This document shows positions 333-26,732 of a DNA stretch of 64,000 bases, piece by piece (position 1 is the stretch's first letter; every line of letters starts with the position of its first letter). The stretch comes from Hoyosella sp. YIM 151337. Lineage in GTDB: Bacteria > Actinomycetota > Actinomycetes > Mycobacteriales > Mycobacteriaceae. The notes under the pieces are model-generated. The model was not told the DNA's origin, ran no database searches, and saw nothing but the letters and a program-made list of their open reading frames with translations. The stretch lies in assembly GCF_026041215.1 (NCBI RefSeq), contig NZ_JAPEIQ010000026.1, forward strand, positions 1 to 64,000, given 5' to 3'. A program made the translations under genes and the position numbers.

Positions 333-343
333 CTGTTTTCTCC

Positions 344-730: not shown

Positions 731-911
731 AGTAACTCCTCACGAAGCGAACGCCCCCTGCGTTTCCATGCTGATGTTCTACGGGGCGGTACTGACAAAC
801 GCCGGCACCGAAGGTTCCGCAATGGTGCGGGGGTCTACCGAGAAATGAATGTGAATTCCGACAGTCGTCAGATTGAGCCGCCACGAGCAGAAGATCACAT
901 AACGTGTCTGC

Positions 912-1412: not shown

Positions 1413-1825
1413 TGAACTTGCGGATCGCAGGCAGTGATGCCTCGCGCGACAGCTTTATGTGCGTTTTGGGCCTTGATGAGGTCAGCGGCTGCGAGTTTCA
1501 GGTTTTGCGCGGCATCGAGGGCATCACCGCGAAGTCCAGTTTGAACGCCTCCCTCCGGCGATTCCTCGCGGCTCTGCGCCCGATGGGGACCGACATTGCC
1601 AGCCGGAGATGTGGCTGTGCTGCGGTTACCCCGTGTGCGACGGTACCGGTGGATCCGCCAACGCGGGTCACCTCGACTACGCATGCCACGACGCCGAATT
1701 GCCGGATGGATGAGGCCAGCCCGGCATTCATAGGAGATCGCAATAAGCTGGCGTGTTTGCGCGAGTTCCTCGATGACGCGCACGAAACGATCCACTTCGA
1801 CGGGTCGTGGCCTGGATTGGCTCAT
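1379..1825 (-). pseudogene. Decayed small gene past the end of the BREX operon
   Basis: An ATG at 1825 has an upstream AGGGTGAG at about 7 nt spacing. The first 30 codons look genuine (SQSRPRPVEVDRFVRVIEEL). The middle then loses protein character in this frame, with a better candidate in another frame (VVACVVEVTRVGGSTG, about 1690-1640). The last 45 codons again look genuine and helical (ALDAAQNLKLAAADLIKAQN). The pattern suggests a frameshifted gene of about 130-150 residues. Its 3' end overlaps the end of the EVE-domain gene by 34 nt. No family is recognised. Confidence 0.3.
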
Positions 1826-1910
1826 CGTAAAGCTCACCCTGGCTCATCACGCCGAGCGCACCGGCGGGGAGCATCATCAACGTCTGCTTCGAGAACGAAC
1901 ATCAGATTTG

Positions 1911-4900
1911 CTAGATCGAATCAGGATCGAACGGCGCGTCTGCGACCGCTCCAGGTGCGAAATCGTCTTGGTCTTCGTCGGCTCGGCGCCGGACACTTAG
2001 AACTGGACCATGCGTATGGATCGCATTGTTGGAGGTCAGGAGCGCTACATACCAAACATCTGAGAAGGACATGTTCCGATGATTGTCGTCGTCTACCGGC
2101 AGGGCATGACGTTCGCTTAGCGTGCCGATCACCAAGTCAGAGTTGAGCTGTCGGAGCCTGTCGGTGAGCCAGTCCGCATCGACCAGAAGCACATCCTGGT
2201 GGTTTTCCCCGTCGGGGACCTCAATAGCTCGTGCAACTACCTTTCCGCCACAGGCCCACTCAGCGCGGCCTCCTACCCAACGCGCAGAACCGAGGAGTTC
2301 CGGGGTGGGAGTGTAGAAGTCGACAGACTCGTCGATGGAACAGTCGAGTGTGCTGCCTTCCCACAAGTACTGCTCCACCGCGGGCCGAGGCCGAAGGCCG
2401 ATGTCACGCAGGTCGCGCGGGATGTCGTAATCGCTCAGTTCCACTTCGGCGGTCGACACGATGGGTGCCGACGCTGCTTCTCCGAGGTATTGGTGGTGCA
2501 TGCGTTTTGCTTCCGGCATTCCCCGACCGGACAAGCCCTCTTTCTGGATGAATTCGTAAACTCGAGTTCCCTGGCCCTGCGGAATCAACCACGAGAACTG
2601 CAGGAAGAAGATATCCCGTTCCCGCTTCGACATCCCGGTGCGCTGTGCGTTGTCGCGGTCCCAAGTTGAGTAGCGTTGGATCGCGACCCACTGTCGGCCG
2701 GCAGGGTCGGTGCAGCAGAACATCGATTCGGCAGTCGGCAGGTCGTCTGTCTTCGCAACCCAATCATCTGGCCTGGCATTGATGTCCATTTCTGGGGCGC
2801 GGAGAGTTGCCCACATGGCGGTTGCGTCACGAGCAACGCGGCAGACGTGGGACTCACCCTCCACGACACTCGGTGGAAGAGTCGGGTCGAAGTCGCGTCC
2901 GTACCAGACCCAAGGCCCTTCGTATCGGTTTTGGGTTTCGCTCCAGGTCTCGTATGAAGGGTGGTAGTTGTCGGCAAGCCGGGCCAGTAGCTCCCTGTGG
3001 GCGATCCACTGGTACTTCTTGCCAAAACGCTCAGCCTTGTGTCCCTCTCGCCCACGCCTAAGGTTGTGATTACGTTCAAATACCTCGAAGCGCTCTGTAG
3101 TCCAGCCGAGGGAGATTGCACGGTTCGCGATCCACCGCCCTGCCCAGTTGACATCAACTACATCGAGCGGGTTCTTACGGTCTTTTGCGGTTGGGGCCGG
3201 GCCAGATAGCGGGTGCCAACTGAAGAACTCCACGTCGCTCTTCACCACGTACTTATTGAAGTCTCCGTACCAATCGAGGCACGAGTGCAGGATCGACGAC
3301 GCGCGCCAGTCTTTGTAGTTGCCAGCGGAATCCTTGATTGGACCGTATGAGGCTTCGAGGTCTTCACGCGTCGGAGGCTCATCAGGCGGTGTTGCTCCGT
3401 ACGGCGGTTCGAAATTCGAAAAGGACTCGTCGGCCTGCAAGCCTCGATCTGCGTACCACGCGGCAATACCTCGGACAGCGTCACGCGCTAGGACGTCGAC
3501 TGGAAGGCCGGATTTGGCCCACGAGGTGACTTCTTCGAGCACCGAACGAGCGGCGTCCAGGTCGCCGTCTCCGCCAACGAGAACAGCGCCGTAGGAGCAG
3601 GTCAGAACTCGCTCTTGAACGTAGGGGTCGTTGACGTGCCGCGCCTTCGCGATGAGGGATGCAGCGAGTCTCAGCCGACGAGCCAAAAGGGTGACCAAAG
3701 TCTTCGATGCGCGATCGCGCAGAAACCTGTTGGGAGACGTGAGCAGCCACATTAGTGCTATCGCTGCAAGGCGGGCTTCCTCCTCGTTTGCTGCGCCTGA
3801 GAGGCGCTCAGCCCAACGAGTCAGTCGATGAAACGCCTCGGAGCTCTGATCGAACTGGAAGGTCGCGATTGACCATTTAGCGTCTCTGTCAGCCATGCTC
3901 AGATCGACAAGTTGTGCGTGGAGCCAGTCAGCGTTTCCGGGATGGCCATCACGCGGAGCTAGCGCGAGAATGGTCTCAGCGTCGTGCGGTTCTTCGAGGA
4001 AACGCTGACGAAGCAGTTCCAATGCGCGCGTGCCGAAGGCTGCGGCGTGGCGGTCGGTCAAGCTCTCACGTAGGGCTTCTTGCAGTCGAAGATCGTCTGT
4101 CTTCGCCGACAGAATGTCGACGAGTTCGATGCCCTCCTTCTCGGGGAGCGTCACCGCCAGCGATCGCCAAGACCACGGAGCGTCAGCGATGCGCGTCGCC
4201 AGCACTCGCCGTCTCGATGCTGACCGCATGAAAGGTAGGAACCGGTGCATCCGAGAACTCGACTCTGCATCGACTGCGACCAAAAGCCGGTTTGCGAGGA
4301 GGTGCTCGGAGTAGGCCTGAAATGGAAACGCGACGGACTCTGTCCCGTCATACGAGGGGCGGAGCTCTATTAGCCCTTCACTCGCCAACTGCTGGAAGAG
4401 TGTGTTCGGCCAAGCCCGACCCGGGAGGAACCCCTCCACCTCCTGCTCGATCTGATGACGCGGAATGGGCCGACCACCGTTTTGCAGAAGGCGATCAGAA
4501 ATGTGCGTCAGTGCATCCGCGACGACCCTGCTGGTCGGTGGCAATGCAAGCTTTCTCGTTACCTTCTTGCCGACTACCTCGGCGTAGCGATCGAAGAGGT
4601 TAGAGCGTGTGGGAGCGTCAACAACTCCTTTAGGATCTGCTGCCATCACCTGGCAGTACATGCGCAGGAAGAGCGGGCTACTGAAGCCAGGCTCGTAAAG
4701 GCCATGGGACGGAACTGGAATGCCGAACAGATTGCAGTATGCCGCGAGTCCCTCCGCCTCCATTCCCGTGAGTCCTGGGTGCTGGACCTTGAGGAGGGAG
4801 TCTGGTGGACCGATCACTTCGCGGTAGTCCGTTCTAAAGGACACGATCAAAGCAAGGTGGTGATACTTGCTGAATTGCGCAACCATGGCGGGGAGTTCGT

Positions 4901-6164
4901 CCCGCCATCTCTTAGGCGATTGTGACTCGTTGATCGCGTCGATCACCACGAGAGCGCGACAACTTCGAGCTTCAGCCAAAGAGTCGAGCGCTTGGAGGAA
5001 CGTGTCGCTGTCGGCGGCGATGCCGCCGAGTGTGTCTGAAGCTGCTGGCCACCAGTTTTTGTCGCTGAGTCGTTGGCCGAGTATCGCGAGGGCAGGCACA
5101 CCACGTTTCAGACACCCTTCAACGGCACGCATTAAGGCGTGTGTTTTGCCTTGTCCTGCTGGGCCGATCAGCGCAAACGCTCGATTTGTAAGGGCCGCAG
5201 CGGCGACGCCTGTAGCGAGAGAATGAAGGGCATGGAGAGCCGAGATCGCGGCATCAAGATTTCGGTGCTCATACCATGGCAAGTTTCCCAGCTCGCGGTA
5301 CGCGAGATCGAGAAGTTTGCTCGTAAGCGCTTCGATTCTCGCCAGATCTGGAGCGTCATGTGGAATGACATCGTCACCGCTGTCGGTCGCACCAAAGTAT
5401 GCTGCGCGGACGTCGTCGAGTTTGGTAATCAACTGCTTCGCAGATGCAGTCGAGGTGCCCCACATACCAGTGTCCTGCCGTAAGGCAGCAAGAGTGTGTT
5501 TGATGTCTGCGTGGAGACCGGCAAGGAACACCGGACCGCTCACTGCTGCATCTATAACGTCGTTTATGGAGGACGGGGAGTCGGCTTCGGGAGTGTAACG
5601 CTCGCCGGCCACCTGCTTCGACTCCGTGAACCTGTCTTCGAACCACTTGTCAGTAAGCTCTAGACCACCGAACCAGTACTCGCGGCGGCCGGCGTGCTCG
5701 TTCAATGTCAGCTTGGCTGTGATGTCTCCGGCTCGAATAGTAGCGAACTCGATCTGTGCTGCGCCCGGGATGTCGCTGCGCCACCGTTTTACGGCCGTGT
5801 CCCAGCGATCTTGGTCTGTTGTGTTGCTCGCTGTTCCCGAGTCCGTGAAGTCGTAGGGAACCACGAAGGTCAACTTCGTAAGGTTCGGGCGTTTAGCGCA
5901 AACCGCTTCGACGGAGTCACGCATGCCGCTCAATGCGTCCGCGAGGGTGGCGTGGAACTTCGCCTGAAAGCCCTCCTGGTGCCCGTCGTCGTAGATCTCG
6001 TACCACTCGACACCGGCGTCCGGAGCGCGGGTCTTGCGTGTCTCGACGTGGCTATCGCCCACGGGCGGGCGCAGCTGGTAGACGAGTTCTTCCCATGCAC
6101 GCGCTTGGCTTCCCTCATGCGCTCGAATATCGCGCAGACGGATCTCGCTGGGTCGGGCGATCAT
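1911..6164 (-). CDS. Giant STAND NTPase with N-terminal PD-(D/E)XK-like nuclease domain (Avs-like)
   Basis: The protein has 1417 residues. Residues 15-105 have the pattern of a Mrr/Cap4-like nuclease: a conserved acidic spot (APDAGVEW, about 47-54) followed by FQAKF (66-70), with Gln and Lys as in the D...QxK active site. A P-loop (GPAGQGKT, 334-341) and a Walker B ending in ALVVIDAINES (about 404-414) match the STAND class, as in Avs proteins. The remaining 900 residues are helical at first and Trp/aromatic-rich later, and would be the sensor. It overlaps brxL by ATGA, so it is the last gene of the BREX operon. The expected role is sensing a phage protein, assembling, and cleaving DNA. The family is seen in the sequence; the trigger is unknown. 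Confidence 0.75.
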   Translation of the reverse strand: MIARPSEIRLRDIRAHEGSQARAWEELVYQLRPPVGDSHVETRKTRAPDAGVEWYEIYDDGHQEGFQAKFHATLADALSGMRDSVEAVCAKRPNLTKLTFVVPYDFTDSGTASNTTDQDRWDTAVKRWRSDIPGAAQIEFATIRAGDITAKLTLNEHAGRREYWFGGLELTDKWFEDRFTESKQVAGERYTPEADSPSSINDVIDAAVSGPVFLAGLHADIKHTLAALRQDTGMWGTSTASAKQLITKLDDVRAAYFGATDSGDDVIPHDAPDLARIEALTSKLLDLAYRELGNLPWYEHRNLDAAISALHALHSLATGVAAAALTNRAFALIGPAGQGKTHALMRAVEGCLKRGVPALAILGQRLSDKNWWPAASDTLGGIAADSDTFLQALDSLAEARSCRALVVIDAINESQSPKRWRDELPAMVAQFSKYHHLALIVSFRTDYREVIGPPDSLLKVQHPGLTGMEAEGLAAYCNLFGIPVPSHGLYEPGFSSPLFLRMYCQVMAADPKGVVDAPTRSNLFDRYAEVVGKKVTRKLALPPTSRVVADALTHISDRLLQNGGRPIPRHQIEQEVEGFLPGRAWPNTLFQQLASEGLIELRPSYDGTESVAFPFQAYSEHLLANRLLVAVDAESSSRMHRFLPFMRSASRRRVLATRIADAPWSWRSLAVTLPEKEGIELVDILSAKTDDLRLQEALRESLTDRHAAAFGTRALELLRQRFLEEPHDAETILALAPRDGHPGNADWLHAQLVDLSMADRDAKWSIATFQFDQSSEAFHRLTRWAERLSGAANEEEARLAAIALMWLLTSPNRFLRDRASKTLVTLLARRLRLAASLIAKARHVNDPYVQERVLTCSYGAVLVGGDGDLDAARSVLEEVTSWAKSGLPVDVLARDAVRGIAAWYADRGLQADESFSNFEPPYGATPPDEPPTREDLEASYGPIKDSAGNYKDWRASSILHSCLDWYGDFNKYVVKSDVEFFSWHPLSGPAPTAKDRKNPLDVVDVNWAGRWIANRAISLGWTTERFEVFERNHNLRRGREGHKAERFGKKYQWIAHRELLARLADNYHPSYETWSETQNRYEGPWVWYGRDFDPTLPPSVVEGESHVCRVARDATAMWATLRAPEMDINARPDDWVAKTDDLPTAESMFCCTDPAGRQWVAIQRYSTWDRDNAQRTGMSKRERDIFFLQFSWLIPQGQGTRVYEFIQKEGLSGRGMPEAKRMHHQYLGEAASAPIVSTAEVELSDYDIPRDLRDIGLRPRPAVEQYLWEGSTLDCSIDESVDFYTPTPELLGSARWVGGRAEWACGGKVVARAIEVPDGENHQDVLLVDADWLTDRLRQLNSDLVIGTLSERHALPVDDDNHRNMSFSDVWYVALLTSNNAIHTHGPVLSVRRRADEDQDDFAPGAVADAPFDPDSI

Positions 6165-8299
6165 GCGACGCCGTTTGGGGCGGCGGCATCCCCATGTCGT
6201 TCACCTTCTCGGATATACGTCACGCCAAAGGCCTTGACCTGACGGTACTGCTGAAGCTTAACCGCAAGGTCAAAGGCGTCGTTCGCGACGAACTGGAAGA
6301 TGTCGAGCCCCCGCCCGAGATTGATTCGCCATCCGGAGTTGGCGACGATTGAGCGGTCGTGGATGGTGCCGTCGAACTTGACGTCCAGTTTGATGCCCGC
6401 GACTGCAGCCGCTTGCTTTACGCGGAGCAGAAATTCCAGCTGCTTCTGCAGCTTCTCCGGACCGTCCCTATTCTCGCTGGTGACTAATACTATCTTCACT
6501 TCGTCGGCTGGATCCTTAACGGCCGCAAGCGCTTCGATAAGTTCCATCAGGTTCCGGGCTTGGTGAAACTGCCGAATGTAGGGGTCGACGATGGTGATCT
6601 CCGTTGCACCGCGAAGGTACGGGAGCAAGAGTTTCTCGTACGAAACTCCGCGCTGGTTCTCTTGGAACTCGCGGTGGCCCTCGAACAATGGTTCCGGCTT
6701 TGAAGTCTTCTCATACCGCACAGACTTGGTGTCTGCTCGCTCCGTGGACTCCGTCGGCTGACCGTGCGGCTCCCCTTCGTCCGTCCGGCGCTTGTGGTAG
6801 TAGTCCGGGTACTCGTCCTCTTCGAGCGTAGTAACCCCGTGCCAGTCGCCTGCTTTATCGAGATACCCGAACTTCACATCCGCCATCGTCGTGTCGATGC
6901 GAAGAATTTGGTCTTTGACACGTTTGCGTCCTTCGATGGCGAATCGGAGGATCTCTTCGATCTCTTCCTTCGACGCTTCCCCATTCGGATAGAGGATCTT
7001 CATTAGTCCGGAGAAGGTCTTGTGGATTCCGTCGCGGTCGCGGGTGGAGATATCAGAACCAAGTGTGAAGTGCTGCTGGTAGCGATCGGAGTAGTCCGTG
7101 TTGCGCATGGACTTGAGCACTTCGGCGATGTAGTCGACGACGAAGCCGTAGCCGTCGGAGAACATCTCGCCTCGGATAATGTCGACTTCCCAGCCCGGAA
7201 TGTAGAAGTGCAGACGGTCGAGATAGGCCGGGTCATGGTAACTTTCGGGCAACTCGTCGAACAGGTCCGAGTGTTTAAGCATGTAGGGCACGTTGTGTGA
7301 GGTGTTGCCAACGAACACCATCGATGCCTCAGCGCCCAATGTCTCTACGCCGCGGGAGAACGACTTGTTCGCCATGTAGTTCTTCATGATGTCGACAAGC
7401 GCCTTGTCGGTGCGCTTCTTCTTGCCAGCGAACTCGTCGAACGCAACGACATCCCAGTAACCAACGAGGCCGATTCGACCGTTGGAGTTGTTGACGAAAA
7501 GCTTGGGAACGGTGACCTCACCACCGGAGATGAGCATGCCGTGCGGCGAGAACTCCGAGTAGATGTGTGACTTGCCCGTTCCTTTGGGGCCGAGCTCGAC
7601 GAGGTTGTAGTTGCGTTCAACGAACGGGATGAGGCGCACGAGCTGAATGAGCTTTGCTCGTCGGCCGAACACCTCGGGGTTGAAGCCAATTGACTGGATT
7701 AACAGATCGATCCACTCGTCAGTGGTGAACTTCTGTCGTGCTTCGACGTATACATCGAAGTCGAAGTTGGACAGCTGGATCGGCTTGATCGATCCAAGGA
7801 TCCACGGCACGACGCGTGCGTTGTCACTGTGGAAGTATTCGATGTCGCAGATGCACCACACGCCGCCGACCAACAGCTTGGGGTGCGCGGTGATAGTGGT
7901 CGACTCGACGAGTACCTGCTTGATGCCGAGGTTTGTAAACGTGGCCTCGTAAACGTCGTCCTTGTCGTTGAGCGTGACGATTACCTTGTCGATGATCTTG
8001 TATCGACCGCGCTCACGAATGGTCGACTTCACTAGCTCCGACTGGTTCCGGTGGACGTAATGGTCAGCGAGAATCTTGCGGACCGCGTCAATGCCAGCCT
8101 GAATGGTGGCTTCGTCGTCGGAGGCTGCGTACTGGCCGAGAAGGTATTCCAGTACGTACGAGGGCACAATCGCATTGCCCTTAACTGCCTTGACGAGGTC
8201 CTTGCGAACGACGAGGCCAGCGAAGTGCTCGTTGATCTTGCGATCGAGGGCACCTGCCGTGAGTGAGTTCGAGGAAGTCAAGTCCTTGATGTCTGTCAT
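6161..8299 (-). CDS. brxL: BREX protein BrxL (Lon-like AAA+ ATPase)
   Basis: At 712 residues this is the usual BrxL size. It shows the BrxL-type P-loop (ELGPKGTGKSHIYSEFSPHG, about 233-252) and a Walker B (VVAFDEFAGKKK, about 284-295). Conserved surroundings include GMLISGGEVTVPKLFVNN and GLVGYWDVVAFDEF. The C-terminal third (about 545-700) carries the Lon-like segment. BrxL is a DNA-binding AAA+ ring needed for phage exclusion in type 1 BREX, and its presence with BrxA/B/C, PglX and PglZ sets the type here. The start overlaps the HerA gene by 4 nt and the end overlaps the STAND gene by 4 nt. In standard loci brxL follows pglZ; here two foreign genes lie between them. Confidence 0.93.
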   Translation of the reverse strand: MTDIKDLTSSNSLTAGALDRKINEHFAGLVVRKDLVKAVKGNAIVPSYVLEYLLGQYAASDDEATIQAGIDAVRKILADHYVHRNQSELVKSTIRERGRYKIIDKVIVTLNDKDDVYEATFTNLGIKQVLVESTTITAHPKLLVGGVWCICDIEYFHSDNARVVPWILGSIKPIQLSNFDFDVYVEARQKFTTDEWIDLLIQSIGFNPEVFGRRAKLIQLVRLIPFVERNYNLVELGPKGTGKSHIYSEFSPHGMLISGGEVTVPKLFVNNSNGRIGLVGYWDVVAFDEFAGKKKRTDKALVDIMKNYMANKSFSRGVETLGAEASMVFVGNTSHNVPYMLKHSDLFDELPESYHDPAYLDRLHFYIPGWEVDIIRGEMFSDGYGFVVDYIAEVLKSMRNTDYSDRYQQHFTLGSDISTRDRDGIHKTFSGLMKILYPNGEASKEEIEEILRFAIEGRKRVKDQILRIDTTMADVKFGYLDKAGDWHGVTTLEEDEYPDYYHKRRTDEGEPHGQPTESTERADTKSVRYEKTSKPEPLFEGHREFQENQRGVSYEKLLLPYLRGATEITIVDPYIRQFHQARNLMELIEALAAVKDPADEVKIVLVTSENRDGPEKLQKQLEFLLRVKQAAAVAGIKLDVKFDGTIHDRSIVANSGWRINLGRGLDIFQFVANDAFDLAVKLQQYRQVKAFGVTYIREGERHGDAAAPNGVA

Positions 8300-10425
8300 G
8301 CGTCGTCCCCTGAATTCGAATAGCCGCTCGGCGAACTCTCTTCCTCTGCGATTTGCTGCCAGTCGCGAGCTACGGCGTCCCAGTTAGTCGGCCGGTTGAC
8401 GGTATTACCATGGGCGTCTGAGCCGGTCCACACATACCAGTAGTCGGGGTCATCGGATCTCGGGCGATGATCGGCGGGTAGATCGAGCATTTCGACGGTG
8501 ATTGGTAACTCCGACGCCCAACCCAGGAGAATAGCGTTCTTTGACGGCAAAGACGGTAGGTCGCGAAGGAGGCTCCGAAGGTTGTCAGGAACGAGCCTCT
8601 GTACGAGGTCTTGATCTGTGTGGTTGCTAAGGCGGTGCAGGAGGAACGTGTTGCACTGCGACAGTACAGTTGGAGAAAGCTCGCTCGGACGTTGCGATGA
8701 CAACACTAACCCGAGCCCAAACTTCCGCCCTTCCCTCGCAATTCGTTCAAATGTATGAGAACAGATTTCCTGGGTGGATCTGGATTCGGAGTCGGAGGCG
8801 TACCGCTTAATGAAGGTGTGCGCCTCCTCCATGACGAGGACCGTCGGAAGAGTGTCACCGTCATTAACTTTGCGGTAGCGCTGAAGCGCCTCCAAGGCCA
8901 TGCGCCCGATTACCGCGGTAAGAATGTGGACAGCGTCGGCTGGAACCAACGACAGATCGATCACAGTAATATTGGCTGCCCCAGGATCTTCACCGAAGAG
9001 GCTGGAGAGCCACCCCAATAACGATAATTCTCCATCGTCCCCGCAAACAGTTCGCAAGCGCGAGTCGGCGAGAAGTGTCCGAATCCGCATCAGCATCGGC
9101 TCGACATGCTCGGCAACATTCAAAACCTCAGCGTTTGCTTCGACGCTGCGAAGGAATTGTTCACTGTTAAACTTTCGGGGTACGTCAGCATCCAGCGGTA
9201 GCGCTTCGGCCAGAGTCCCGCCAAAGGCTGCGTGAGCGACTGAAGCGAACTCGAGTAGCTGCTTTACCTCGCTTTTGCTGAACTCCCACGTTGGGTGGTT
9301 ACCACTCCGTGCACCGATCAACTGATTTGCATGATTGTGCAGACTCTGTAACGCTGCATTCTCTTTATCCGAAAAGTCTGCGTCTGGCTCGAAGTCGACT
9401 ACGAGCTTCCTGAGCCTCTCGCAAAAGCCCTTGGGTTTTGGAAACGCGCCCCATGGAGATCCGGATCGATACTCCATCTGTATTACCGAAACGACCGTCC
9501 TGAGGAACCGTCGCATGTCATCGCGTCGAGACGACGAGGGGTCGAAGGATCCGTCGCGCACTGCACGCAACGAGTGGACGAGTGTAGGCCGTTGTGTACG
9601 TGGACTCGCTTGGGTGATCGCGGACCACTCGTCACTGTTCCACAGCCAGAGTGGGACCCGGAGTTGCCCTGCTTCCTCACTTGCCTCAACTGCGTAGACC
9701 TGGGCACCGAGATCTAAAAAAGCCTTCCCGTATTCGCCATTAGGATCAAGGATGATGAACCGTGCGTTCGGAGTTTTTTCCGAATGCCCTTGCTCTCGGA
9801 AGCGCTGGCGCGCTGACTCAAGTGACCAGCGGATGAGGCCTGCGACCGAGCAAGACTTTCCGCTTCCCGTATTCCCTAGGATGGCAAGGTGACGACCGAA
9901 CAACCGATCTGGGTCGATCTTGACTTCAGCATCAGCGGCGAGCGGACTTGTGCCTATCAATACGCGCCGGTTTGCGCCTGACTCGACAATCGACCTCAAC
10001 TGTTCGGTAGTCGGCAGTAACACCGGATCCCCGACCGTCGGAAAGGCCTGGATTCCTCTGATGAACGTGTAGTTAACCTCGCCATCGCTCTGGGTCGCCA
10101 GCAGCGATAGTTGTCCAACGGGATTCAAGCTCATCTTCCGAAGCGGGTACGGAACGTCGATCAGCCCAAAGTCCTGCATCCCTTTACGCTTTGGATACTG
10201 AGACCGCTCGACCGTGATCCATTCAACCTGCCCCACCGCAAACGCGCCGTCACTTGGGACCAGTACGTACCCGTTGACACGTGGAAAAGCGCGTGGTGAT
10301 CCGGCATTTAGGGCAACCGTGTCGGGTGCCTCAATGTCGAGAAGCACTTCGATCTTGTCCGGGGAGACAAACTCAACGCTGCCGACTCGTAGGGAGTCAG
10401 CGTGGGCCATCGGTGTATACGTCAT
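8296..10425 (-). CDS. HerA/FtsK-like hexameric DNA-translocase ATPase, partner of the SIR2 protein
   Basis: The 709-aa protein has a beta-barrel-like N-terminus (HAS barrel region, residues 1-150) and a P-loop (LGNTGSGKSCSVAGLIRWS, about 178-196). The Walker B reads VLVMEEAHTF (about 523-532). A sensor and arginine-finger region follows (REGRKFGLGLVLSSQRPSE), as in HerA. HerA ATPases pair with SIR2 or nuclease effectors in phage defence (SIR2-HerA, also called Nezha). It overlaps the upstream SIR2 gene by ATGA and the downstream brxL by ATGA, so translation of all three should be coupled. The assignment as HerA is firm. Partnership with the SIR2 neighbour is inferred from adjacency and known systems. 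Confidence 0.87.
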   Translation of the reverse strand: MTYTPMAHADSLRVGSVEFVSPDKIEVLLDIEAPDTVALNAGSPRAFPRVNGYVLVPSDGAFAVGQVEWITVERSQYPKRKGMQDFGLIDVPYPLRKMSLNPVGQLSLLATQSDGEVNYTFIRGIQAFPTVGDPVLLPTTEQLRSIVESGANRRVLIGTSPLAADAEVKIDPDRLFGRHLAILGNTGSGKSCSVAGLIRWSLESARQRFREQGHSEKTPNARFIILDPNGEYGKAFLDLGAQVYAVEASEEAGQLRVPLWLWNSDEWSAITQASPRTQRPTLVHSLRAVRDGSFDPSSSRRDDMRRFLRTVVSVIQMEYRSGSPWGAFPKPKGFCERLRKLVVDFEPDADFSDKENAALQSLHNHANQLIGARSGNHPTWEFSKSEVKQLLEFASVAHAAFGGTLAEALPLDADVPRKFNSEQFLRSVEANAEVLNVAEHVEPMLMRIRTLLADSRLRTVCGDDGELSLLGWLSSLFGEDPGAANITVIDLSLVPADAVHILTAVIGRMALEALQRYRKVNDGDTLPTVLVMEEAHTFIKRYASDSESRSTQEICSHTFERIAREGRKFGLGLVLSSQRPSELSPTVLSQCNTFLLHRLSNHTDQDLVQRLVPDNLRSLLRDLPSLPSKNAILLGWASELPITVEMLDLPADHRPRSDDPDYWYVWTGSDAHGNTVNRPTNWDAVARDWQQIAEEESSPSGYSNSGDDA

Positions 10426-11822
10426 GAACCGTCCTCAGGCTTCGGACTGCTGTCGCCACTGGAGGATTGATTGATGTGGTTGTCCTCGCCGTAGCGATGC
10501 CGCAGCAAGTCAGCCATTCGTCGCGATGTCGCATCGATTGACGGCTTGGGCAAGTACTGAGAAGTCAAGTTGGAGATGTTGCCAAGTTCAGGCCCCACAA
10601 GTAGGGACACTTGGGACCTTCGTCCCCACTCTTCGAGCACTTGCTGAATTCTTCCAAGCTTGTCGTCAAACGAAATGATTACCAGGTGAGTTGAAGGGAT
10701 CGTCAACGCATCGCGGATTACCCGATTGATGTGGTCGTCCCCGAAACTGTATCCGTAGGTCACGATCGTGCTATTCGGCCTTGCTATCGCTGCAGCGAAG
10801 TCCCGAAACAGTTCAACGTAGGGGTACTCAGCGGTTTCGCGGTCTTTAGCGGCATTAGGAAAGATCATGAGACTATTCGCGGAGACCCCGTTGAGCCCAG
10901 GAGCTTCCAAGTACGGGTTAATAATCTTCGCACCGTAGGGAATGCCCACTCGACGAATGGCTTGTCCCTTCGAGATCCAATCGATTGAGCCATGTAACTT
11001 CGTGAAGCGGACTACACCTTCAACGAATCGGGGTTCGCCTCGAATACCTGGTGGATTGTAATGCAGATCCAAATCAAGACGGGAAGATCGGAACATAGGG
11101 GTGACAGAGCCAACAAACCGGTCGAGGAGATGCAACCCCGCGAGCTCAGCGCCAACCTCTATTAACCGGTCGTAATTTGTCGTGAAGATATTGAGCCGGT
11201 CTCGGTTTCCGGTTCGGCTTGCGAAACTCATGAGGAACGACACCAAGGTTGCGAACGCGTGGGTGCGCTTCGACGGCTCAGCCTCCATAAGCTCCCGCTC
11301 TGCGCACAGAATCGAATCTGCGAACTGCTTGAGCATTTGGCTAAGTTCGTCGCGCAGATCATTTGCACGAGCGTCCCCTAGAATCTCCAATCCGCGCAGA
11401 AGCTGTGTCGCCACGCGGATCCGATCTTCGATGTTGGGCTGATCCCGCCCAGCCAGTAGCGCCGAACTTTTGCTCGCGTCGGAAAGTTCCTGTCCACATG
11501 TCTGGAATTCTCCGCCCTCCATGTTTGCCGCGTTGGCGCCTGACAAGCGTGCTACGCCGGTCGGGAGCCCCGAGCCGACTAAGAGCGACAAATGGTCGGA
11601 TTGAAACAGCGATGTCAGCCATGGCTCAATCCTCCGACGTAAGGCTACTTGGTCGAATGAGTTACCAGCCCAAGGTGGAAGCTCGCCGCCAACTGCTTCA
11701 AACTCCCCAGAAGGGCTCTGACTGAAGCGAAAAGCCTTAACGTCGTCGCGAACTTTGAGCGAGTTTGTTGGGCTCGACGCATCTGAGACTTCCGCCGGAG
11801 AGTCCCCGTCACCGTTCTTCAC
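10422..11822 (-). CDS. SIR2-like NADase-type effector protein
   Basis: The 466-aa product carries the SIR2 signature. A nucleotide-binding loop LLVGSGLPTG lies at about 80-89, TTNYDRLIE at about 211-219, and KLHGSIDW at about 273-280 with the expected catalytic-type His. The later YGYSFGDDHINR (about 350-361) is typical of bacterial defence SIR2 proteins. Such proteins deplete NAD+ after infection. No separate effector domain is visible. The start is uncertain: GTG at 11822 has no good ribosome site, while a perfect AAGGAGG (11857-11851) overlapping the pglZ stop codon is followed by an in-frame ATT at 11846. It lies 33 nt after pglZ, the only clear gap between brxA and the STAND gene. Confidence 0.87.
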   Translation of the reverse strand: MKNGDGDSPAEVSDASSPTNSLKVRDDVKAFRFSQSPSGEFEAVGGELPPWAGNSFDQVALRRRIEPWLTSLFQSDHLSLLVGSGLPTGVARLSGANAANMEGGEFQTCGQELSDASKSSALLAGRDQPNIEDRIRVATQLLRGLEILGDARANDLRDELSQMLKQFADSILCAERELMEAEPSKRTHAFATLVSFLMSFASRTGNRDRLNIFTTNYDRLIEVGAELAGLHLLDRFVGSVTPMFRSSRLDLDLHYNPPGIRGEPRFVEGVVRFTKLHGSIDWISKGQAIRRVGIPYGAKIINPYLEAPGLNGVSANSLMIFPNAAKDRETAEYPYVELFRDFAAAIARPNSTIVTYGYSFGDDHINRVIRDALTIPSTHLVIISFDDKLGRIQQVLEEWGRRSQVSLLVGPELGNISNLTSQYLPKPSIDATSRRMADLLRHRYGEDNHINQSSSGDSSPKPEDGS

Positions 11823-11846
11823 ACCACCCGCAGCTGAACTGGAAAT

Positions 11847-11857
11847 CTCTCCTCCTT
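11847..11857 (-). promoter_or_regulatory. Perfect Shine-Dalgarno overlapping the pglZ stop codon, with no standard start nearby
   Basis: On the minus strand AAGGAGGAGAG covers the TAA of pglZ. No ATG, GTG or TTG occurs within 15 nt downstream. The first standard in-frame start of the SIR2 gene is GTG at 11822, about 28 nt away. An in-frame ATT at 11846-11844 follows at a spacing of 4 nt. This either marks a rare AUU start or a ribosome-loading site used by re-initiating ribosomes. Confidence 0.5.
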
Positions 11858-14348
11858 AGAAGTCGAAGTCCGAAGCGAAGGAACGCTTAAGCGTGTACAT
11901 CGCTTTCTGGTAGACGCGCCACTGGTTGGTGTTGGGTATGTGTTCTTCGAGCCGGAATTCGACGGCACGGTTGTTGTAGTCGTTGGCGTCTTGGGTGAGC
12001 AGCATCTGAGCGTTTTGGTATCGGTCCCGTTTGTCTGTCGATTCTTGGTCGAACGTCAATTCGACCTGGTTTGAGATCAGCGTCTCACCGACATATAGTC
12101 CTGCGCGTACTTTGCGTGGCTGCACCTTTTCGCTCACGGGTTCAGACTGGAAGAGGCGGACGACAACCTGCCCGGTTGTGATCTTGTCGGATTCTGGCCA
12201 CACTTCGACGTTAACCAATCGGGTGTCGCTCTTGCGCTTCTTGTTGACAGCGAGCACGGGTATGACGACTTCCTGCAGGGTCGCGCCTCCGTGCACGAAG
12301 CGCGAACCACCCCCAGCCAGTTTGAGGCGGTGGATCGATTTGGGGATCTGTACCTCAAGATCACCGTCGAGTTTGAGTTGCACCGAATTGAACGTGGTAA
12401 AGGCGTAATCGACTTTGAGGCCGTGGCCGAGCACGTAGCGACGGTTAGTGACTTTGATGTCGTCGCCTTGTGGCTGGGTCGAGAGGAAGAATGAGTCGGC
12501 GAGGGCGTCGTCTTGGAATAGGAACCCGTGGTCGGCGGTGATGAAGACGTTGGTGGCATTCGCGTTGGCGAGTTTCTTCACGAGGTCGACGATGTCGCGA
12601 AGGGTGTCGCTGACTGCCTCGAACACCTGACGTTCGGTGCCTGGCTTGTCACCGGTTGCGTCGATGCGGTTGTGGTAGACGTAGAGGACACGATTTGCCT
12701 TATAGATTCCGCGACGCTCGTCCTGAGTGAGCGCTTTGAAATCTTCAGCCTGGATTGCAGCGCCTCCGACAGTTTCAAGTATCTTGCTGCGGAACGCGGT
12801 GTTGTTTGTCGGCTGATCGTCAGCGAGTACGGTTTTCGCGTCAGGCGAATGTTTCAGAGTCCGGTGTGGAAGCAGCGCTGCCATGCCAAGCTGGGTGTAG
12901 CTCGGTAGGACTCCGAGCATGGCGTCGAGGCTGGCGTCGAATCGGTCCTCCTGCCGAATGCGGGCGCGAAGTTCCTCGGCCACTTCGTATCGGAGGGCAT
13001 CCGAAACAATGACGACCGCTTTCTTGCCGTCGCGGACGAGGGGGTCGACGTACTCTCGGTAGAACGCCGTTTGCGGGCGAAGCAGGGACGAAGACCATTC
13101 GCTGGACTCGTCGACCTTCTTCTGCCACGTTCTACCTAGTTCGTAGACGAAGGCGTTTGTATACAGCTTCTCGACCTTTTCACGCAGCGGACCGAGCGGG
13201 CTGGGCCCCTCGTATGTGCGGAGGGCGAATGTGAAGTGCCGGTACAGCTGGTCAACGCGGAACCAGTCACGGCGGTAACGATCCAACGCATCGTCGAACG
13301 ACGACATCGTGAAATAAATTGCTGCCAGCTCTGAGAGCAACTCGGCTGCACTAGCAATAGCGGTGTAAAGCTGCTTGTACTCGTCTATCCACACGCTGCT
13401 TTGGCGAGCGCGAACGACCTCGGATACTTCACGGGACGTGACGGTTTGATCCGTAACAGCTTGCGCCAGGTCATGGATGATCTTCTTTTCTGTCTCTTCG
13501 AAGAAATCGACGGAGACGAGGTCGCGGAAGCTCACGTCTTCAATGGCCGAGGCATAGTCGAGGTCACGCGCAGCACGCTTCGCCAAGGTTGTGAGGGCTT
13601 CCTGGCTGCGCCGGTCGTTGCGAAGGCTCGCGAGATCGCGCTGGACGTTCTGGAGCCCACCAGGCCGTTCCGATGCGAAGCCCTCGCTCGCCCTGCGAAA
13701 GATCCACAACACAAAGTCGTCGATACTCGGTGATGTGGTTTTGTATCCGTAGATCGATGCAACGCCAGTCCAGTAGAAGTCGTCGAGCCCGTGGTCGACC
13801 AACGCGTCATACTTGGCAGTTCGGCCTTTAGCGTTCTCCACTAGTAGTGTTCGGGTGATCTCCAGGAGGGTGTGCTCGGCTTGCCCCAACACCACGGCGG
13901 TCATTTTCGCCCGGAGCCTCGCGGCATCATCATTCTGGTTCAGGAGAGCTTTCAGGCTCTGGACGCGTTTGGTGGCGTTGAAGAATTTCTCGTGTGCCTG
14001 GACGACCTCTTCGATACCTTCGGCAGCAAGTCCGAGATCCTGGGAGACAAGGGATGCGCGGTCCGCAGTGAAGACTCCATACGCCAGCTCGAGGTCGAGA
14101 AGCCAGTTCCCAACGCCGGAAGGAACAATACCGGACCGGTACACGAGGAACTTGCTTGTGGGCTCGTCATGCAGAAGCCGATTTTTAATGGCGTACTCGT
14201 CGTTTGAGACGCGGATAATCTCCACACCCGGCAGGTCAAGACTGTCCAGGTCCGCGGCGTATTGCCCTTCCGGGTCGTGCCAGAACACAACCCGGAAGGT
14301 GTCGAACCGCCGCTCGAGATGCGGCCGGACTGTGGCGACTTGGCTCAT
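11856..14348 (-). CDS. pglZ: BREX protein PglZ (alkaline-phosphatase superfamily)
   Basis: The 830-aa length suits type 1 PglZ. The metal-binding core of the alkaline-phosphatase fold is visible in two places: VVIVSDALRYEVAEELR (about 443-459) with its Asp, and VFITADHGFLFQ (about 600-611) with the DHG metal ligands. The N-terminal 400 residues are helical. PglZ is an essential BREX component; metal-dependent nuclease activity has been reported for members, and its exact role is unsettled. It overlaps pglX by ATGA upstream. Downstream comes the SIR2 gene rather than brxL. Confidence 0.93.
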   Translation of the reverse strand: MSQVATVRPHLERRFDTFRVVFWHDPEGQYAADLDSLDLPGVEIIRVSNDEYAIKNRLLHDEPTSKFLVYRSGIVPSGVGNWLLDLELAYGVFTADRASLVSQDLGLAAEGIEEVVQAHEKFFNATKRVQSLKALLNQNDDAARLRAKMTAVVLGQAEHTLLEITRTLLVENAKGRTAKYDALVDHGLDDFYWTGVASIYGYKTTSPSIDDFVLWIFRRASEGFASERPGGLQNVQRDLASLRNDRRSQEALTTLAKRAARDLDYASAIEDVSFRDLVSVDFFEETEKKIIHDLAQAVTDQTVTSREVSEVVRARQSSVWIDEYKQLYTAIASAAELLSELAAIYFTMSSFDDALDRYRRDWFRVDQLYRHFTFALRTYEGPSPLGPLREKVEKLYTNAFVYELGRTWQKKVDESSEWSSSLLRPQTAFYREYVDPLVRDGKKAVVIVSDALRYEVAEELRARIRQEDRFDASLDAMLGVLPSYTQLGMAALLPHRTLKHSPDAKTVLADDQPTNNTAFRSKILETVGGAAIQAEDFKALTQDERRGIYKANRVLYVYHNRIDATGDKPGTERQVFEAVSDTLRDIVDLVKKLANANATNVFITADHGFLFQDDALADSFFLSTQPQGDDIKVTNRRYVLGHGLKVDYAFTTFNSVQLKLDGDLEVQIPKSIHRLKLAGGGSRFVHGGATLQEVVIPVLAVNKKRKSDTRLVNVEVWPESDKITTGQVVVRLFQSEPVSEKVQPRKVRAGLYVGETLISNQVELTFDQESTDKRDRYQNAQMLLTQDANDYNNRAVEFRLEEHIPNTNQWRVYQKAMYTLKRSFASDFDF

Positions 14349-17300
14349 TCCGCAGCCTCCAGACCTGGAATCTTCTTCAAAGCTGCACCGAACTTCGGGT
14401 AATTCGCTTTCACACCGTCGTCCAGGTCGATCTCGATCTGCTGGGACGCCAGCGGATACAGAACATCGTGCTCATACTCATCCAGTTCGAGCAGAACCTT
14501 GCGGAGCCGGTCTGCTTCCTTCTGGGCTGCCGCCTGCTGACGTGCCGTCCCACCGCCCGCAGCAAGACGTTCCTGATGCTCCAGGCTCGATCCAAGTTTG
14601 GCTTTGAACTCGCGCAAGTAGTCGTTGAGCACCGTCGACACCGTTGACGACGTATACCGGTGCATATAGATGAGCGCATTAAACGAGCCCTTAGGGCTTG
14701 AGAACAACCAGTAGATCGGGCGCTTCTTATAGCGCTTAACGTGATCCTTGTAGAACGACTTGACGAAGTAGTCGCGGAGGTTCTTCACTCCCAACGACTC
14801 GGTCACGAATCGAAGGTTTTCCTCGAAGTGCTGCTCACCAAACGCAACACGCAGGAACTCCCGGAACCGCGAGACAATGTCATCTTCAAACCAGTCACCA
14901 TCGACGATCGGAATTACATTGTTTGCGTCTGGCATAAACCTCGGCGACGGAACCTTCGCCATGTAGTCCTGGATTGTCGCACCCTGGTCGGCCAGTACGA
15001 GGCCCGGTTTGTTGAGGCTGTAGCGGCCAAACATGCAACCAACGAAGTACGACAGCATGTCCTCCACCGCTGTGCGCACAAAGTCACTTCCGTCCGCACG
15101 TGCCGCGTCCAGAGTGATGTCATTTGTCACGACGCTGATGTCCTGCACGTCAAGAAGGCCATAAGCCTCCAGAGCCCCCTTGTTGAGGGTCTGCTCCAAA
15201 TCACGCATGCGGGACACTAATGCCTGACACGAGAATATATGCTGCGCCAAGCGATCGCTTATCTTTCCTTCGGCGGCCGACTGAACAAGAGGCGAGCGCA
15301 CAAACCCCCACGCCGTCTCACGCTGATCCCAATCATTCCGAGCGAGACTGACGCACTCCTCTGCCCAGTCAGCGAACTCTGCAGGGAGCGCATCCAGGAA
15401 CGGGATGCTCATGACGTGCCCGAGGTTGAAGTCCAGCGTCGGAGCTAGCATCCGCATGAAGCGCACCGCAACGGCGCTATTGAGCAGCCCCTGGAGCAGG
15501 CGGAGCTCATTCGCTTTAATAGCAAATCCCATTGGGCCCTTCGTGTCGAACATGAATCCGTTGGGTACATCGCGTACTGCGAACCCGTTACCTGAGATTC
15601 CCGACCACGTAAATCCCTCACGGAATGCGAACTCGCCGTTGAAGTTGTGAGCCCGCACCCGTCCGGTTGTGGAATCGACGTTCGATTTGACTTCCGATCC
15701 GTCGTTGTACCAGTTCACCACGAACTCATAGTTGCCCGCCCATCGCCGATACTCCCCCCCTTTAACGTACGGGAACCATCGACGAGTCGAAGGTTTGGCC
15801 GAACTAGCCTCAAAGTCGATTGACGACAGCGACACCTCGTGCCACCGACGCAGGAACGAATTGTTGTCGCCGGTGATGAGACCAACACGAGTCTCGATAT
15901 GGTCGCCAACGGATTCAGCGGTCTCGAACAACTCAAAGTCGCGATCCGTAGCCCAGTATACGATCGCCTTGCCCGGTATCCGAGTGAGATGGACGAGATC
16001 AATTAGGTAGTAATCCTCGGCACCCCCCGCGGCAATCTCCTTTAGCCGCTGAGCCTTTACTGCTTCCGATCGACCCTCAACGAGGCGCATGAAAGCTCCG
16101 CGGACTCCCGGAGCAGCAGCTTGTCTCGCAATTACGAATGCAGTCGTTCCAACGACTTCGCCACCAATGCTGTCGAATGCACGCGCTCCGAGATGTGCCA
16201 TTGAGACCAAGCGTTGATTGCCGACAATCTCGGCTCTGAGCCGCTCAAAGTAGCGGAGTGACATCCAACCCTGCATTGTTACCATCGCCACGAGTCCGCG
16301 CGACTTAGCCAGGAGGAGAGCGCGCTCGATGAACATAGCGTAAAGGTCAGTTTTGGTAAGAGGGTAAGCCGTCTTGGCCCACTCGGAAAGGCTGCCGCAC
16401 AACTTTCCCAGTCCGGCGTATGGTGGATTCGCGACGACGACCGCGTACAGCGGGGACAGGTAATGAGTCTGCTCGACGACCCGGTTAGCCCACGAGATCG
16501 CGTCGGCCTTCAGCATGTCTCCACCATCGTCGAGTGTGTCCAAGTGGGTCGCCAGTCTGACCGTTAAGCCAGGTTCCGGCTGGATAAGCGCACCCCGAGT
16601 ATCAGCCTCAGCGAACTGGTTCCAGAATGCGATCTCTTCGTCCCGGTCACCGTCAGCAGTCAGCAGGTAATCGAGCTCCTGCGGTGTGAAACGGATCGGA
16701 ACTAGAACACAGATATTAGGCTCAACCTGCTTGCCGAAGAACGTCCGCTGCTTCGCTCGCGCCTTCATCGTCAACGCAAACGCCGCAAGAGCCCCTGCCC
16801 GAGGATCAATCTCGGTGCCATACAGATTATTGGCGAGGATCAGCCCAGGAATCTCTGAAGGGGCGTAGCCCTCCTCCTCATATATCGCATACAAAAGGTC
16901 GAAGGCATAGGTCAGCATGTGGCCGGACCCGCAAGCCGGATCGATGATCTTCAGTTCCTCTGGCGTGTTGATCTTGAGGAAATCGGTCTCCTCGTCTACC
17001 GGGGCGATGTAATACTCCATCTGGTCAACCAGCCGGGACAACGGACGGTTGAGCATCCACAACCGGCCCAGTGAGTTCTCCACCAAATAGCGGACAATCC
17101 AGTGCGGCGTGAATAGCTGTGTCGCAGCGGGAATTTCCGCAGCCCCGGCCTTCTTGTTCTTCTTGAACCCGGCGAAGACCTCGTCTTTACGCTCCGAAAT
17201 GTAGAACTGGTACAGCCAGCCAATAACCTCAACGTCCTTGCAGACATCCTCAGTTAGGACCTTGACGGCCCGGTTGAGCACAGAGTCATCAGCCAGGAGG

Positions 17301-17833
17301 TTAGAAGGGATCAGTAACTCGGTGAAGTCGCCCTCACGCTCGAACATGAACGGCATGGTCCGGTTCCAGTGGCGACAATACGCCGTTAGCAAGAGTGCGT
17401 AAGCCTCCCCCTGCGGATCATCACTGCGACGAGTCCCATTCAGAAGCCCCGTCACAGCCTCGCGTATCCGCGGAGTCACTACATCGGCATCAATAACACC
17501 GCGTTTCGCCTCAGCAAGAACCTCCGGCTGACCACCCTCCACCCCAGCGTGAGGCGAAACCACACCGATGCCCGTGTAGCCGTTGGCATCCATGAAACGC
17601 AAAGCGATAATCCGGTTGAACCACGTATACGCAACTCGGTCCGCTACCGCCGCACGGCCTTTGCCACCACCCCCTGCTGCGGTGACTGCTTTCTCCAGAT
17701 CGGCAACGATTTTCGGCTGCTCAACCCGCTCAGCGGAAGCCGGCGCTAGCACCGCGGCAACACGCGCAGTCACATCACGAATCAGCGCAGAACGCGCCCA
17801 CGTAGCAAACGATTTCAGTGGTGCGGTTTCCAT
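14345..17833 (-). CDS. pglX: BREX adenine-specific DNA methyltransferase PglX
   Basis: The 1162-aa protein has the S-adenosylmethionine-binding motif IIDPACGSGHMLTYAFD (about 296-312) and the N6-adenine catalytic motif VVVANPPYAGLG (about 463-474). The large C-terminal part would hold target recognition. PglX methylates one strand of a non-palindromic host motif, so the host is marked and phage DNA is excluded. Its target cannot be read from sequence. The ATG shares one base with the stop codon of brxC (TGATG), and its end overlaps pglZ by ATGA. The frame is intact, with no homopolymer tract seen that would suggest phase variation. Confidence 0.94.
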   Translation of the reverse strand: METAPLKSFATWARSALIRDVTARVAAVLAPASAERVEQPKIVADLEKAVTAAGGGGKGRAAVADRVAYTWFNRIIALRFMDANGYTGIGVVSPHAGVEGGQPEVLAEAKRGVIDADVVTPRIREAVTGLLNGTRRSDDPQGEAYALLLTAYCRHWNRTMPFMFEREGDFTELLIPSNLLADDSVLNRAVKVLTEDVCKDVEVIGWLYQFYISERKDEVFAGFKKNKKAGAAEIPAATQLFTPHWIVRYLVENSLGRLWMLNRPLSRLVDQMEYYIAPVDEETDFLKINTPEELKIIDPACGSGHMLTYAFDLLYAIYEEEGYAPSEIPGLILANNLYGTEIDPRAGALAAFALTMKARAKQRTFFGKQVEPNICVLVPIRFTPQELDYLLTADGDRDEEIAFWNQFAEADTRGALIQPEPGLTVRLATHLDTLDDGGDMLKADAISWANRVVEQTHYLSPLYAVVVANPPYAGLGKLCGSLSEWAKTAYPLTKTDLYAMFIERALLLAKSRGLVAMVTMQGWMSLRYFERLRAEIVGNQRLVSMAHLGARAFDSIGGEVVGTTAFVIARQAAAPGVRGAFMRLVEGRSEAVKAQRLKEIAAGGAEDYYLIDLVHLTRIPGKAIVYWATDRDFELFETAESVGDHIETRVGLITGDNNSFLRRWHEVSLSSIDFEASSAKPSTRRWFPYVKGGEYRRWAGNYEFVVNWYNDGSEVKSNVDSTTGRVRAHNFNGEFAFREGFTWSGISGNGFAVRDVPNGFMFDTKGPMGFAIKANELRLLQGLLNSAVAVRFMRMLAPTLDFNLGHVMSIPFLDALPAEFADWAEECVSLARNDWDQRETAWGFVRSPLVQSAAEGKISDRLAQHIFSCQALVSRMRDLEQTLNKGALEAYGLLDVQDISVVTNDITLDAARADGSDFVRTAVEDMLSYFVGCMFGRYSLNKPGLVLADQGATIQDYMAKVPSPRFMPDANNVIPIVDGDWFEDDIVSRFREFLRVAFGEQHFEENLRFVTESLGVKNLRDYFVKSFYKDHVKRYKKRPIYWLFSSPKGSFNALIYMHRYTSSTVSTVLNDYLREFKAKLGSSLEHQERLAAGGGTARQQAAAQKEADRLRKVLLELDEYEHDVLYPLASQQIEIDLDDGVKANYPKFGAALKKIPGLEAAE

Positions 17834-26398: not shown

Positions 26399-26732
26399 CG
26401 TCGTGGGTCTTGTGTCTAGAAGTACCGTGATCCGGCTCCACCAGTAACAGCACTGGCTTGGCATATGCGAAAAGTAGCGAAATCGGACGGACCACTCCGT
26501 TAAGACAAGGAAATACGTTCCCATCTACCCGCCCGCACACGACACCTGGACGCGTACACCCGATACCGAAATGAAACGAGCGTTCCCGCCGATACTGCAC
26601 ATAGCAGTGCAAAACTAGTTGCTTGCGTGAGTGGATCATTTAGTCGGATCGATCCTGCTCTCAAGCCGCCGCCACGTACCTGTGAACTAAACCGCCGCAC
26701 TGCGGAGAGCCAAACGAGGAGTGCTGGGAGAA
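26399..26732. other. Intergenic region upstream of the SNF2 helicase gene
   Basis: About 330 nt with no supportable gene on either strand. It probably holds the promoter of the helicase pair. I see no clear hexamers, terminator hairpin or repeat. Confidence 0.4.

Follow-up and report, generated by a model that had tools for sequence, protein, structure and literature searches.

Type 1 bacteriophage exclusion (BREX) operons usually carry brxL straight after pglZ, and the question raised by the locus described here is why a SIR2-HerA gene pair should intervene between these two genes in Hoyosella sp. YIM 151337. The locus lies in the 64,000-nucleotide stretch that was analysed (contig NZ_JAPEIQ010000026.1, positions 1 to 64,000; hereafter the window). 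The account favoured here, and considered probable, is that an autonomous and mobile SIR2 + HerA cassette has been inserted into a type 1 BREX operon, ordinary in other respects, between its pglZ and brxL, where it would provide a second abortive layer co-expressed with BREX.

Anatomy of the operon and its SIR2-HerA pair

The minus strand of the window carries, in transcription order, an HTH_17 gene, brxA, brxB, brxC, pglX, pglZ, SIR2, herA, brxL and an Avs2-like gene, with brxA through brxL forming one tight type 1 BREX operon. A preliminary description of this DNA had proposed the order pglZ, SIR2, HerA, brxL inside a type 1 BREX system, with ATGA overlaps at SIR2/HerA and HerA/brxL. Order and overlaps are confirmed by the open reading frames (ORFs), the sequence and the family scores, and brxA, brxB, brxC and pglX were recognised directly upstream through NCBIfam and Pfam. 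The type 1 gene set is complete, with pglX, pglZ, brxC and brxL over their NCBIfam cut-offs and brxA and brxB assigned via Pfam. The brxA gene (21914 to about 22528; Pfam BrxA, E = 3.9e-51) belongs to an ORF open from 23107, yet the Pfam domain begins at ORF residue 203, and a Shine-Dalgarno-like sequence with ATG occurs at 22528/22525. It is followed by brxB (21318–21917, 199 amino acids (aa); Pfam BrxB, E = 1.3e-40), the ATPase gene brxC (17833–21321, 1162 aa; NF033441, 1132.8 bits; Walker A present), the adenine methyltransferase gene pglX (14345–17833, 1162 aa; NF033452, 1298.7 bits; NPPY at 469) and pglZ of BREX-1 type A (11856–14348, 830 aa; TIGR02687, 734.8 bits against a cut-off of 270). 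The product of brxL (6161–8299, 712 aa) has BrxL_N, BrxL_ATPase and MIT_C domains and a Walker A motif, and it exceeds the TIGR02688 cut-off (638 against 329 bits) while remaining under that of a second NCBIfam model, TIGR02653 (608 against 628 bits). The broken pglZ-brxL adjacency is judged to be an insertion and not a loss of type 1 BREX identity. The host genome as a whole gave one BrxL match and one HerA match, plus a weak HerA match of 47 bits.

Both genes of the pair have intact reading frames and motifs and the orientation of the operon. SIR2 (10422–11822) encodes a SIR2-family predicted NADase (nicotinamide adenine dinucleotide (NAD+) hydrolase) of 466 aa from its GTG (PADLOC PDLC04079, 526.6 bits; Pfam SIR2_2), and herA (8296–10425) encodes its partner, a HerA-type DNA translocase of 709 aa (PADLOC PDLC04098, 822 bits; Pfam DUF87). 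SIR2 contains the motifs TTNYD and KLHGS, has Asn216 and His277, which do not vary among 13 chosen homologues when these are aligned, and resembles its counterpart in the SIR2-HerA complex of E. coli (structure 8j4u, E = 5e-24); HerA carries the Walker A motif GNTGSGKS plus EEAH. The AlphaFold2 model of HerA (mean predicted local distance difference test score 77.9) found its best Foldseek matches in the HerA of HerA-DUF4297 and SIR2-HerA complexes, at template modelling scores of about 0.5 by query length. The window thus has what marks SIR2-HerA (Nezha/GAO_19), neighbouring SIR2 and HerA genes with catalytic residues. The pair nevertheless scores under all NCBIfam equivalog cut-offs (NF042942, 131 of 500 bits; NF042944, 207 of 850; NF042943, 190 of 800) and is a relative of SIR2-HerA from another subfamily, that of PDLC04079/PDLC04098.

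If start codons are taken as listed for the ORFs, neighbouring genes overlap by 1 to 4 nucleotides (nt) all the way from brxA through the Avs2-like gene, save at pglZ and SIR2. The 4-nt ATGA overlaps of the pair are at 10425–10422 (SIR2/herA) and 8299–8296 (herA/brxL). The 33-nt pglZ-SIR2 junction (11823–11855), an addition to the preliminary description, marks the edge of the insertion and has a Shine-Dalgarno-like GGAGGAG right behind the pglZ stop. The start of SIR2, listed as GTG, is uncertain because an in-frame ATT at 11846, 24 nt upstream, sits close behind GGAGGAG. At the other edge, the translation of brxL had been said to depend on herA. The overlap would allow translational coupling, but full dependence seems overstated: AGGGGA lies 6 nt ahead of the brxL ATG, and brxL may therefore still recruit ribosomes itself. 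The brxL genes of three BREX relatives (L105, L106 and L108, below) likewise begin ATGAC, so the herA stop within ATGA can come from the brxL start itself. A simple scan of positions 1–14500 found no promoter-like site on the minus strand, which is weak evidence in an actinomycete; its 1 promoter-like site (plus strand) and 12 terminator-like sites compare with 4.0 and 12.4 in shuffles, so that there is no excess and the counts are uninformative for such an organism.

The undivided site in BREX relatives and the hosts of the pair

BrxL loci were drawn from two sources. Among 394 actinomycete-class genomes 8 had a match at E ≤ 1e-30, one being the window's own, and 7 were fetched; among 369 genomes of the class of G1025 (the genome of L031, below) 15 had a match at E ≤ 1e-60, in 18 places, one being that of L031 itself, and 17 were fetched. 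The nearest BREX kin found are L105 (BrxL 86%, PglZ 75%) and L106 (BrxL 84%, PglZ 56%), where 10 and 12 nt separate the pglZ stop from the brxL ATG; in L108 the distance is 14 nt. Throughout the 14 loci in which tblastn recognised pglZ, brxL comes straight after it, with gaps of −11 to 33 nt when the start codon nearest the pglZ stop is used. The other 10 have no ORF of at least 70 aa between brxL and the preceding gene, which was not recognised as pglZ (a pglX-like frame takes this place in L107). In the DNA fetched for the 24 loci, several of which are cut by contig ends, tblastn recognised neither SIR2 nor HerA. The two genes also adjoin in plasmid loci of R. qingshengii and Arthrobacter Rue61a.

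Among the best 80 of at least 556 relatives of the pair, the nearest is that of Propioniciclava flava (L017; HerA 70% identical), with no BREX gene in the flanks of 362 and 174 nt that its 4-kb contig offers. Because the nearest BREX kin have pglZ and brxL adjacent and the nearest pair shows no BREX gene, SIR2-herA of the window appears to be a derived insertion into an ordinary type 1 BREX operon, and not a member of a conserved clade. G+C content at third codon positions (GC3) is 0.60 for SIR2 and 0.62 for herA, lower than the 0.67–0.75 of pglX, pglZ, brxC, brxB and brxL (brxA left out).

The relatives come from a HerA-alignment search of 84,980 genomes, and the best 80 together with 5 plasmid loci make up the 85 loci analysed. 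The 80 are nearest relatives and not a random sample, and they include some near copies (the HerA of L021 and L027 are identical). Neighbours were clustered, representatives were named via PADLOC and NCBIfam, and hosts were scored within five genes on the same strand; L013 was scored as having no host although hsd genes adjoin it on the opposite strand. Outside the 85 stand L007 (46% HerA at a contig end, with no PADLOC match in the 7 neighbouring frames tried), the distant HerA loci L008–L011, the viral-collection loci L129–L134 and the plasmid locus L149. At E ≤ 1e-30, HerA matched 266 plasmid records, 6 of which were examined.

A methylation-type host stands beside or around the pair in 45 of 68 informative loci, which is a low estimate because unclustered methyltransferases would be missed; 23 have no host, and 17 more loci were too short. 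The hosts are type I (18), type III (8), BREX 1 (8), BREX 3 (5) and BPTD_3080-type (3) systems, with one each of DUF499/Hma-like, type IIG and type II, these last three assigned by hand. Host genes flank the pair on both sides in 24 of the 85 loci. The pair lies directly before the gene for a target-recognition or methyltransferase part in 22 of the 45 hosted loci, and herA overlaps the next gene by 4 nt in 14 of the 45. In the type I loci, hsdS is the next gene after herA in 14 of 18. Nine of these 14 also have hsdM right before SIR2, and in 12 of the 14 herA and hsdS share 4 nt when the in-frame start nearest the herA stop is taken. The order hsdM-SIR2-HerA-hsdS recurs across several phyla.

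Slots within BREX are more varied. The pair lies between pglX and pglZ in L018 and, with other genes between, in L050; between the halves of a split pglX in L025, L031 and L032 and, by the visible part, in L026 and L030; and after brxL in L072. In BREX 3 it is behind brxC in three loci and ahead of the methyltransferase in two. The conserved pglZ-SIR2-HerA-brxL synteny that the preliminary description had proposed to look for is rejected on the data searched, as the slot between pglZ and brxL was seen only in the window among the loci examined. The order was not found in the 85 other loci of the subfamily (the best 80 of at least 556 relatives and 5 plasmid loci, 17 of them too short to judge), in the 24 sampled BrxL loci or in plasmid records (585 matched HerA or BrxL at E ≤ 1e-20, and 0 of these matches extended over 80% of the bait). 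The split pglX consists of two genes in L025, L031 and L032 (in part in L026 and L030), an N-terminal half covering query residues 1 to about 605 and a C-terminal half covering about 600 to 1160; in L031 a HEC-02A-like gene also lies between them. With SIR2-HerA inside, this arrangement resembles the hsdM-SIR2-HerA-hsdS order.

Closely similar pairs occur with different hosts. The HerA of L019 (type III), L022 (no host) and L024 (type I) are 91.5–91.9% identical. In plus-strand blastn comparisons (E ≤ 1e-10, over 150 nt) similarity spans 8734–12064 for L019/L022, 8651–11994 for L022/L025 (BREX 1), 8784–11994 for L019/L025 and 8784–11979 for L024 against L025; the pairs themselves span 8574–8643 to 12088–12142, and no similarity was reported outside the pair in these four comparisons. 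Between L019 and L024 similarity continues through the next gene. The HerA of L025 and L031 are 84% identical, but their PglZ, BrxL and BrxC only 31, 37 and 30%. On the HerA tree (86 rows) the BREX-1 label needs 6 changes, at least 5 of them forced by starred branches, and the smallest starred set that holds the window consists of the window and L017. By these comparisons, host operon and pair of the window have separate histories, and the subfamily has entered many methylation-based restriction operons.

A phage origin of the pair gained no support from 50,697 phage records, none of which gave a match at E ≤ 1e-20. IMG/VR gave 6 loci, of which L129 has hsdM, hsdS and hsdR around it and L130–L132 are 85–87% like the pair of Vibrio and R997 elements. 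On the Paenarthrobacter plasmid pCZY (L149) SIR2-HerA lies between two inverted copies of an integrase-bearing gene group, an arrangement suggestive of a mobile cassette.

The C-terminal ends of HerA vary. Median tail lengths are 12 in the 14 loci with a 4-nt overlap, 18 in the 31 other hosted loci and 7 in the 23 unhosted ones (U test, overlap against unhosted, p = 2.6e-5), and as clades differ between the groups this is not evidence of cause. Some relatives, unlike the HerA of the window, bear an acidic tip like that of single-stranded DNA-binding protein (SSB; e.g., NFDDDIPF): L020 (10001–12127), L062 (10001–12133), L063 (973–3096), L081 (10001–12196) and L037 (1713–3935), to which a herA fragment in L014 (17003–17680) can be added. 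These are 5 of the 85 HerA ORFs and the one fragment, against 0 of 1160 other ORFs of these loci, counted by a rule that was chosen with the tips already in view. The five genomes searched each yielded 1–3 SSB genes, one of which has a tip of this kind at its end, LPF replacing IPF where HerA has LPF (L037); this comparison took in only frames ending in F, and 3 of 9 SSB loci were not seen. The acidic tip is the SSB tip motif, which suggests that tip-bearing HerA may dock on SSB-binding proteins.

A probable second layer and its alternatives

The simplest reading is BREX first and SIR2-HerA as a second abortive layer. BREX would impose a methylation-guided block on phage DNA, and HerA-SIR2 would hydrolyse NAD+ and abort the infection if phage replication proceeds. 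Co-expression would keep the two systems in step, and with the pair in this position the expression of brxL would in part require an intact herA. BREX might also gate SIR2-HerA by direct physical contact, but the model does not need this. A SIR2-HerA-type system of V. cholerae is reported to deplete NAD+ on infection, with the SIR2 active site required and loss of herA raising plaquing (PMC11559045), and by analogy the pair of the window would be expected to deplete NAD+ as well. The preliminary description took the pair to be more than a mere neighbour. The tight gene string speaks for this, as does the lack of a minus-strand promoter-like site (weakly), and the arrangement is more than chance because the same pair recurs in operons of such kind; a conserved clade with the exact order is not supported by the data searched.

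Several observations weigh against an inserted second layer. The gap in GC3 is narrow, with the Avs2-like gene (0.66) near both groups. The context of L017 is limited by its contig, and a BrxL search of its genome gave no match but had no positive control, so that the empty answer shows nothing. The HerA tree is a quick IQ-TREE estimate without bootstrap, and host labels are more clustered on it than shuffled ones (BREX 1 equalled in 1 of 500 shuffles, type I in 0 of 500). HerA distances correlate with those of PglZ over 8 BREX-1 loci (Mantel r = 0.69, p below 0.001), of BrxL over 6 (r = 0.44, p = 0.004) and of BrxC over 5 (r = 0.54, p = 0.12), which could mean some joint inheritance; the sister pairs L025/L026 and L031/L032 contribute much to the BREX-1 correlation. 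Exchange between hosts is therefore not free, and a pair remains with one host kind for some time. Further, other HerA subfamilies served as a control, with 12 gammaproteobacterial loci taken via NF042944 at E ≤ 1e-60 (0 of 369 control genomes exceed its curated cut-off) and SIR2 recognised in 5 of the 12. Three of them (L135, L140 and L146) adjoin hsd genes, or are surrounded by them, on the same strand. Type I linkage is not confined to the subfamily of the window, and no difference in rate is claimed.

In a guardian reading, the BREX complex would hold SIR2-HerA inactive, or SIR2-HerA would sense the state of that complex, and a phage inhibitor of BREX such as Ocr would bring about its release. 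This claims more than a second layer does and is rather unlikely. The idea of a backup that fires on BREX inhibition, raised in the preliminary description, would fit the precedents: PrrC, embedded in a type IC locus, fires on inhibition of the restriction enzyme and PARIS senses Ocr (PMC12707154), and a coupling of immunity to suicide was proposed, with Sir2 linked to type I restriction-modification, by Makarova et al. (2012; PMC3506569). Here too the pair is embedded in a restriction operon. In 11 chosen hsdM-SIR2-HerA-hsdS loci the distances between HerA proteins follow those of HsdM (Mantel r = 0.60, p = 0.002) as closely as those of SIR2 (r = 0.56, p = 0.004), and over 16 type I loci r rises to 0.85, with no species tree controlled for; the type I composite looks stable. 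Linkage to one host system is recurrent for the hsdM-SIR2-HerA-hsdS order, but the slot of the window was found once. Moreover, the 23 informative loci without a restriction system nearby on the strand of the pair, and the movement of the pair between unrelated hosts, disfavour a specific fitted interface.

A broader version, which must be called improbable, makes the subfamily a general suicide guard of DNA-methylating defences, with at least seven classes of restriction and BREX hosts whose failure or inhibition it would sense; here, placed between pglZ and brxL, it would guard BREX, and an Avs2-like sensor would add a third layer. If a second layer does fire only when the first fails, one cassette across type I, type III and BREX would be a portable and testable rule for backing up restriction against anti-restriction proteins such as Ocr, and near-identical pairs in different hosts make such a rule directly testable. 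Even as independent layers, one SIR2-HerA lineage is often carried by methylation-based defences.

Rather unlikely as well is that the pair merely uses the BREX promoter, with no functional link, in an island where defence genes pile up. Many pairs have no host system, others are found on plasmids near insertion sequence elements and in R997, Avs2-like and GmrSD-like genes crowd the locus of the window, and SIR2-HerA of other subfamilies is also found beside hsd genes. Same-strand placement amid tightly packed genes nevertheless exceeds loose clustering, and both the recurrence of hsdM-SIR2-HerA-hsdS in several phyla and the HerA/HsdM distance correlation argue for a link. The translational overlap with brxL might suggest that BREX and SIR2-HerA of this operon work only together, which is very improbable given BREX without the pair in L105, L106, L147 and L148 and the L017 pair with no BREX gene in view.

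Neighbouring genes and known systems

The operon has a second guest at its end, missed in the preliminary description. The Avs2-like gene (1911–6164, minus strand, 1417 aa) overlaps the brxL stop by ATGA at 6164–6161 and is the third defence module of the same operon; its product matches PADLOC PDLC02164 (874 bits, best stretch residues 6–994), has a Walker A motif at 334 and is termed Avs2-like since it scores 588 bits against the NCBIfam NF041813 cut-off of 1000. At the opposite end, directly upstream of brxA, the HTH_17 gene (22614–22814, minus strand) encodes a DNA-binding protein of 66 aa (Pfam HTH_17, E = 4.5e-14) and is a possible operon regulator. A divergent gene with a GmrSD_N domain (22951–25257, plus strand, start codon uncertain; PF03235, E = 1.1e-29) is type IV restriction-like and probably a neighbouring defence, and GmrSD-type enzymes are reported as companions of BREX (PMC12839542, section 35). 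Further along the plus strand, overlapping frames for an SNF2-type helicase (1123 aa) and a UvrD-like protein (732 aa) at 26721–32254 are possibly another defence pair. From 41462 to 63604, a 4715-aa ORF and genes for a siderophore-interacting protein, a periplasmic binding protein, a chorismate-binding enzyme, an AMP-ligase and an isochorismatase probably form a siderophore cluster.

PARIS sits inside the Salmonella StySA BREX operon. Accessory suicidal effectors within BREX core loci are a likeness to the BREX loci with embedded backup nucleases, PARIS included, of Rakesh and Krishnan (2026; PMC12839542); that work catalogues nucleases, and its main text contains none of the words SIR2, sirtuin and NADase. 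A 2026 review (PMC12948488) has the terms BREX and SIR2-HerA without joining them in the parts available. No description of SIR2-HerA inside BREX was found in the open-licence literature searched, which did not cover bioRxiv and does not establish its absence from print. In S. thermophilus, sir2/herA genes are reported between or downstream of restriction-modification systems (PMC11514479).

The closest system is SIR2-HerA (Nezha, GAO_19), with which the window shares adjacent SIR2 and HerA genes, the catalytic Asn and His and a HerA model matching the complexes 8wld, 8j4u and 8sub; it differs in its divergence, far under the equivalog cut-offs, in a HerA of 709 aa and in its location inside BREX. 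PrrC in EcoPrrI is likewise an abortive effector embedded in a restriction operon, but it is a nuclease that acts on tRNA and is reportedly under the control of the restriction enzyme, whereas any gating of the pair in the window is putative. The type I-linked SIR2 of Makarova et al. (2012; PMC3506569) shares a SIR2 effector in a methylation-based restriction operon and the idea of coupling; theirs belongs to type I restriction-modification (and prokaryotic Argonaute) systems, whereas that of the window occupies the pglZ/brxL slot of BREX 1. The link of SIR2 to type I restriction was already known in 2012, and in the literature covered it is the insertion into BREX that appears new.

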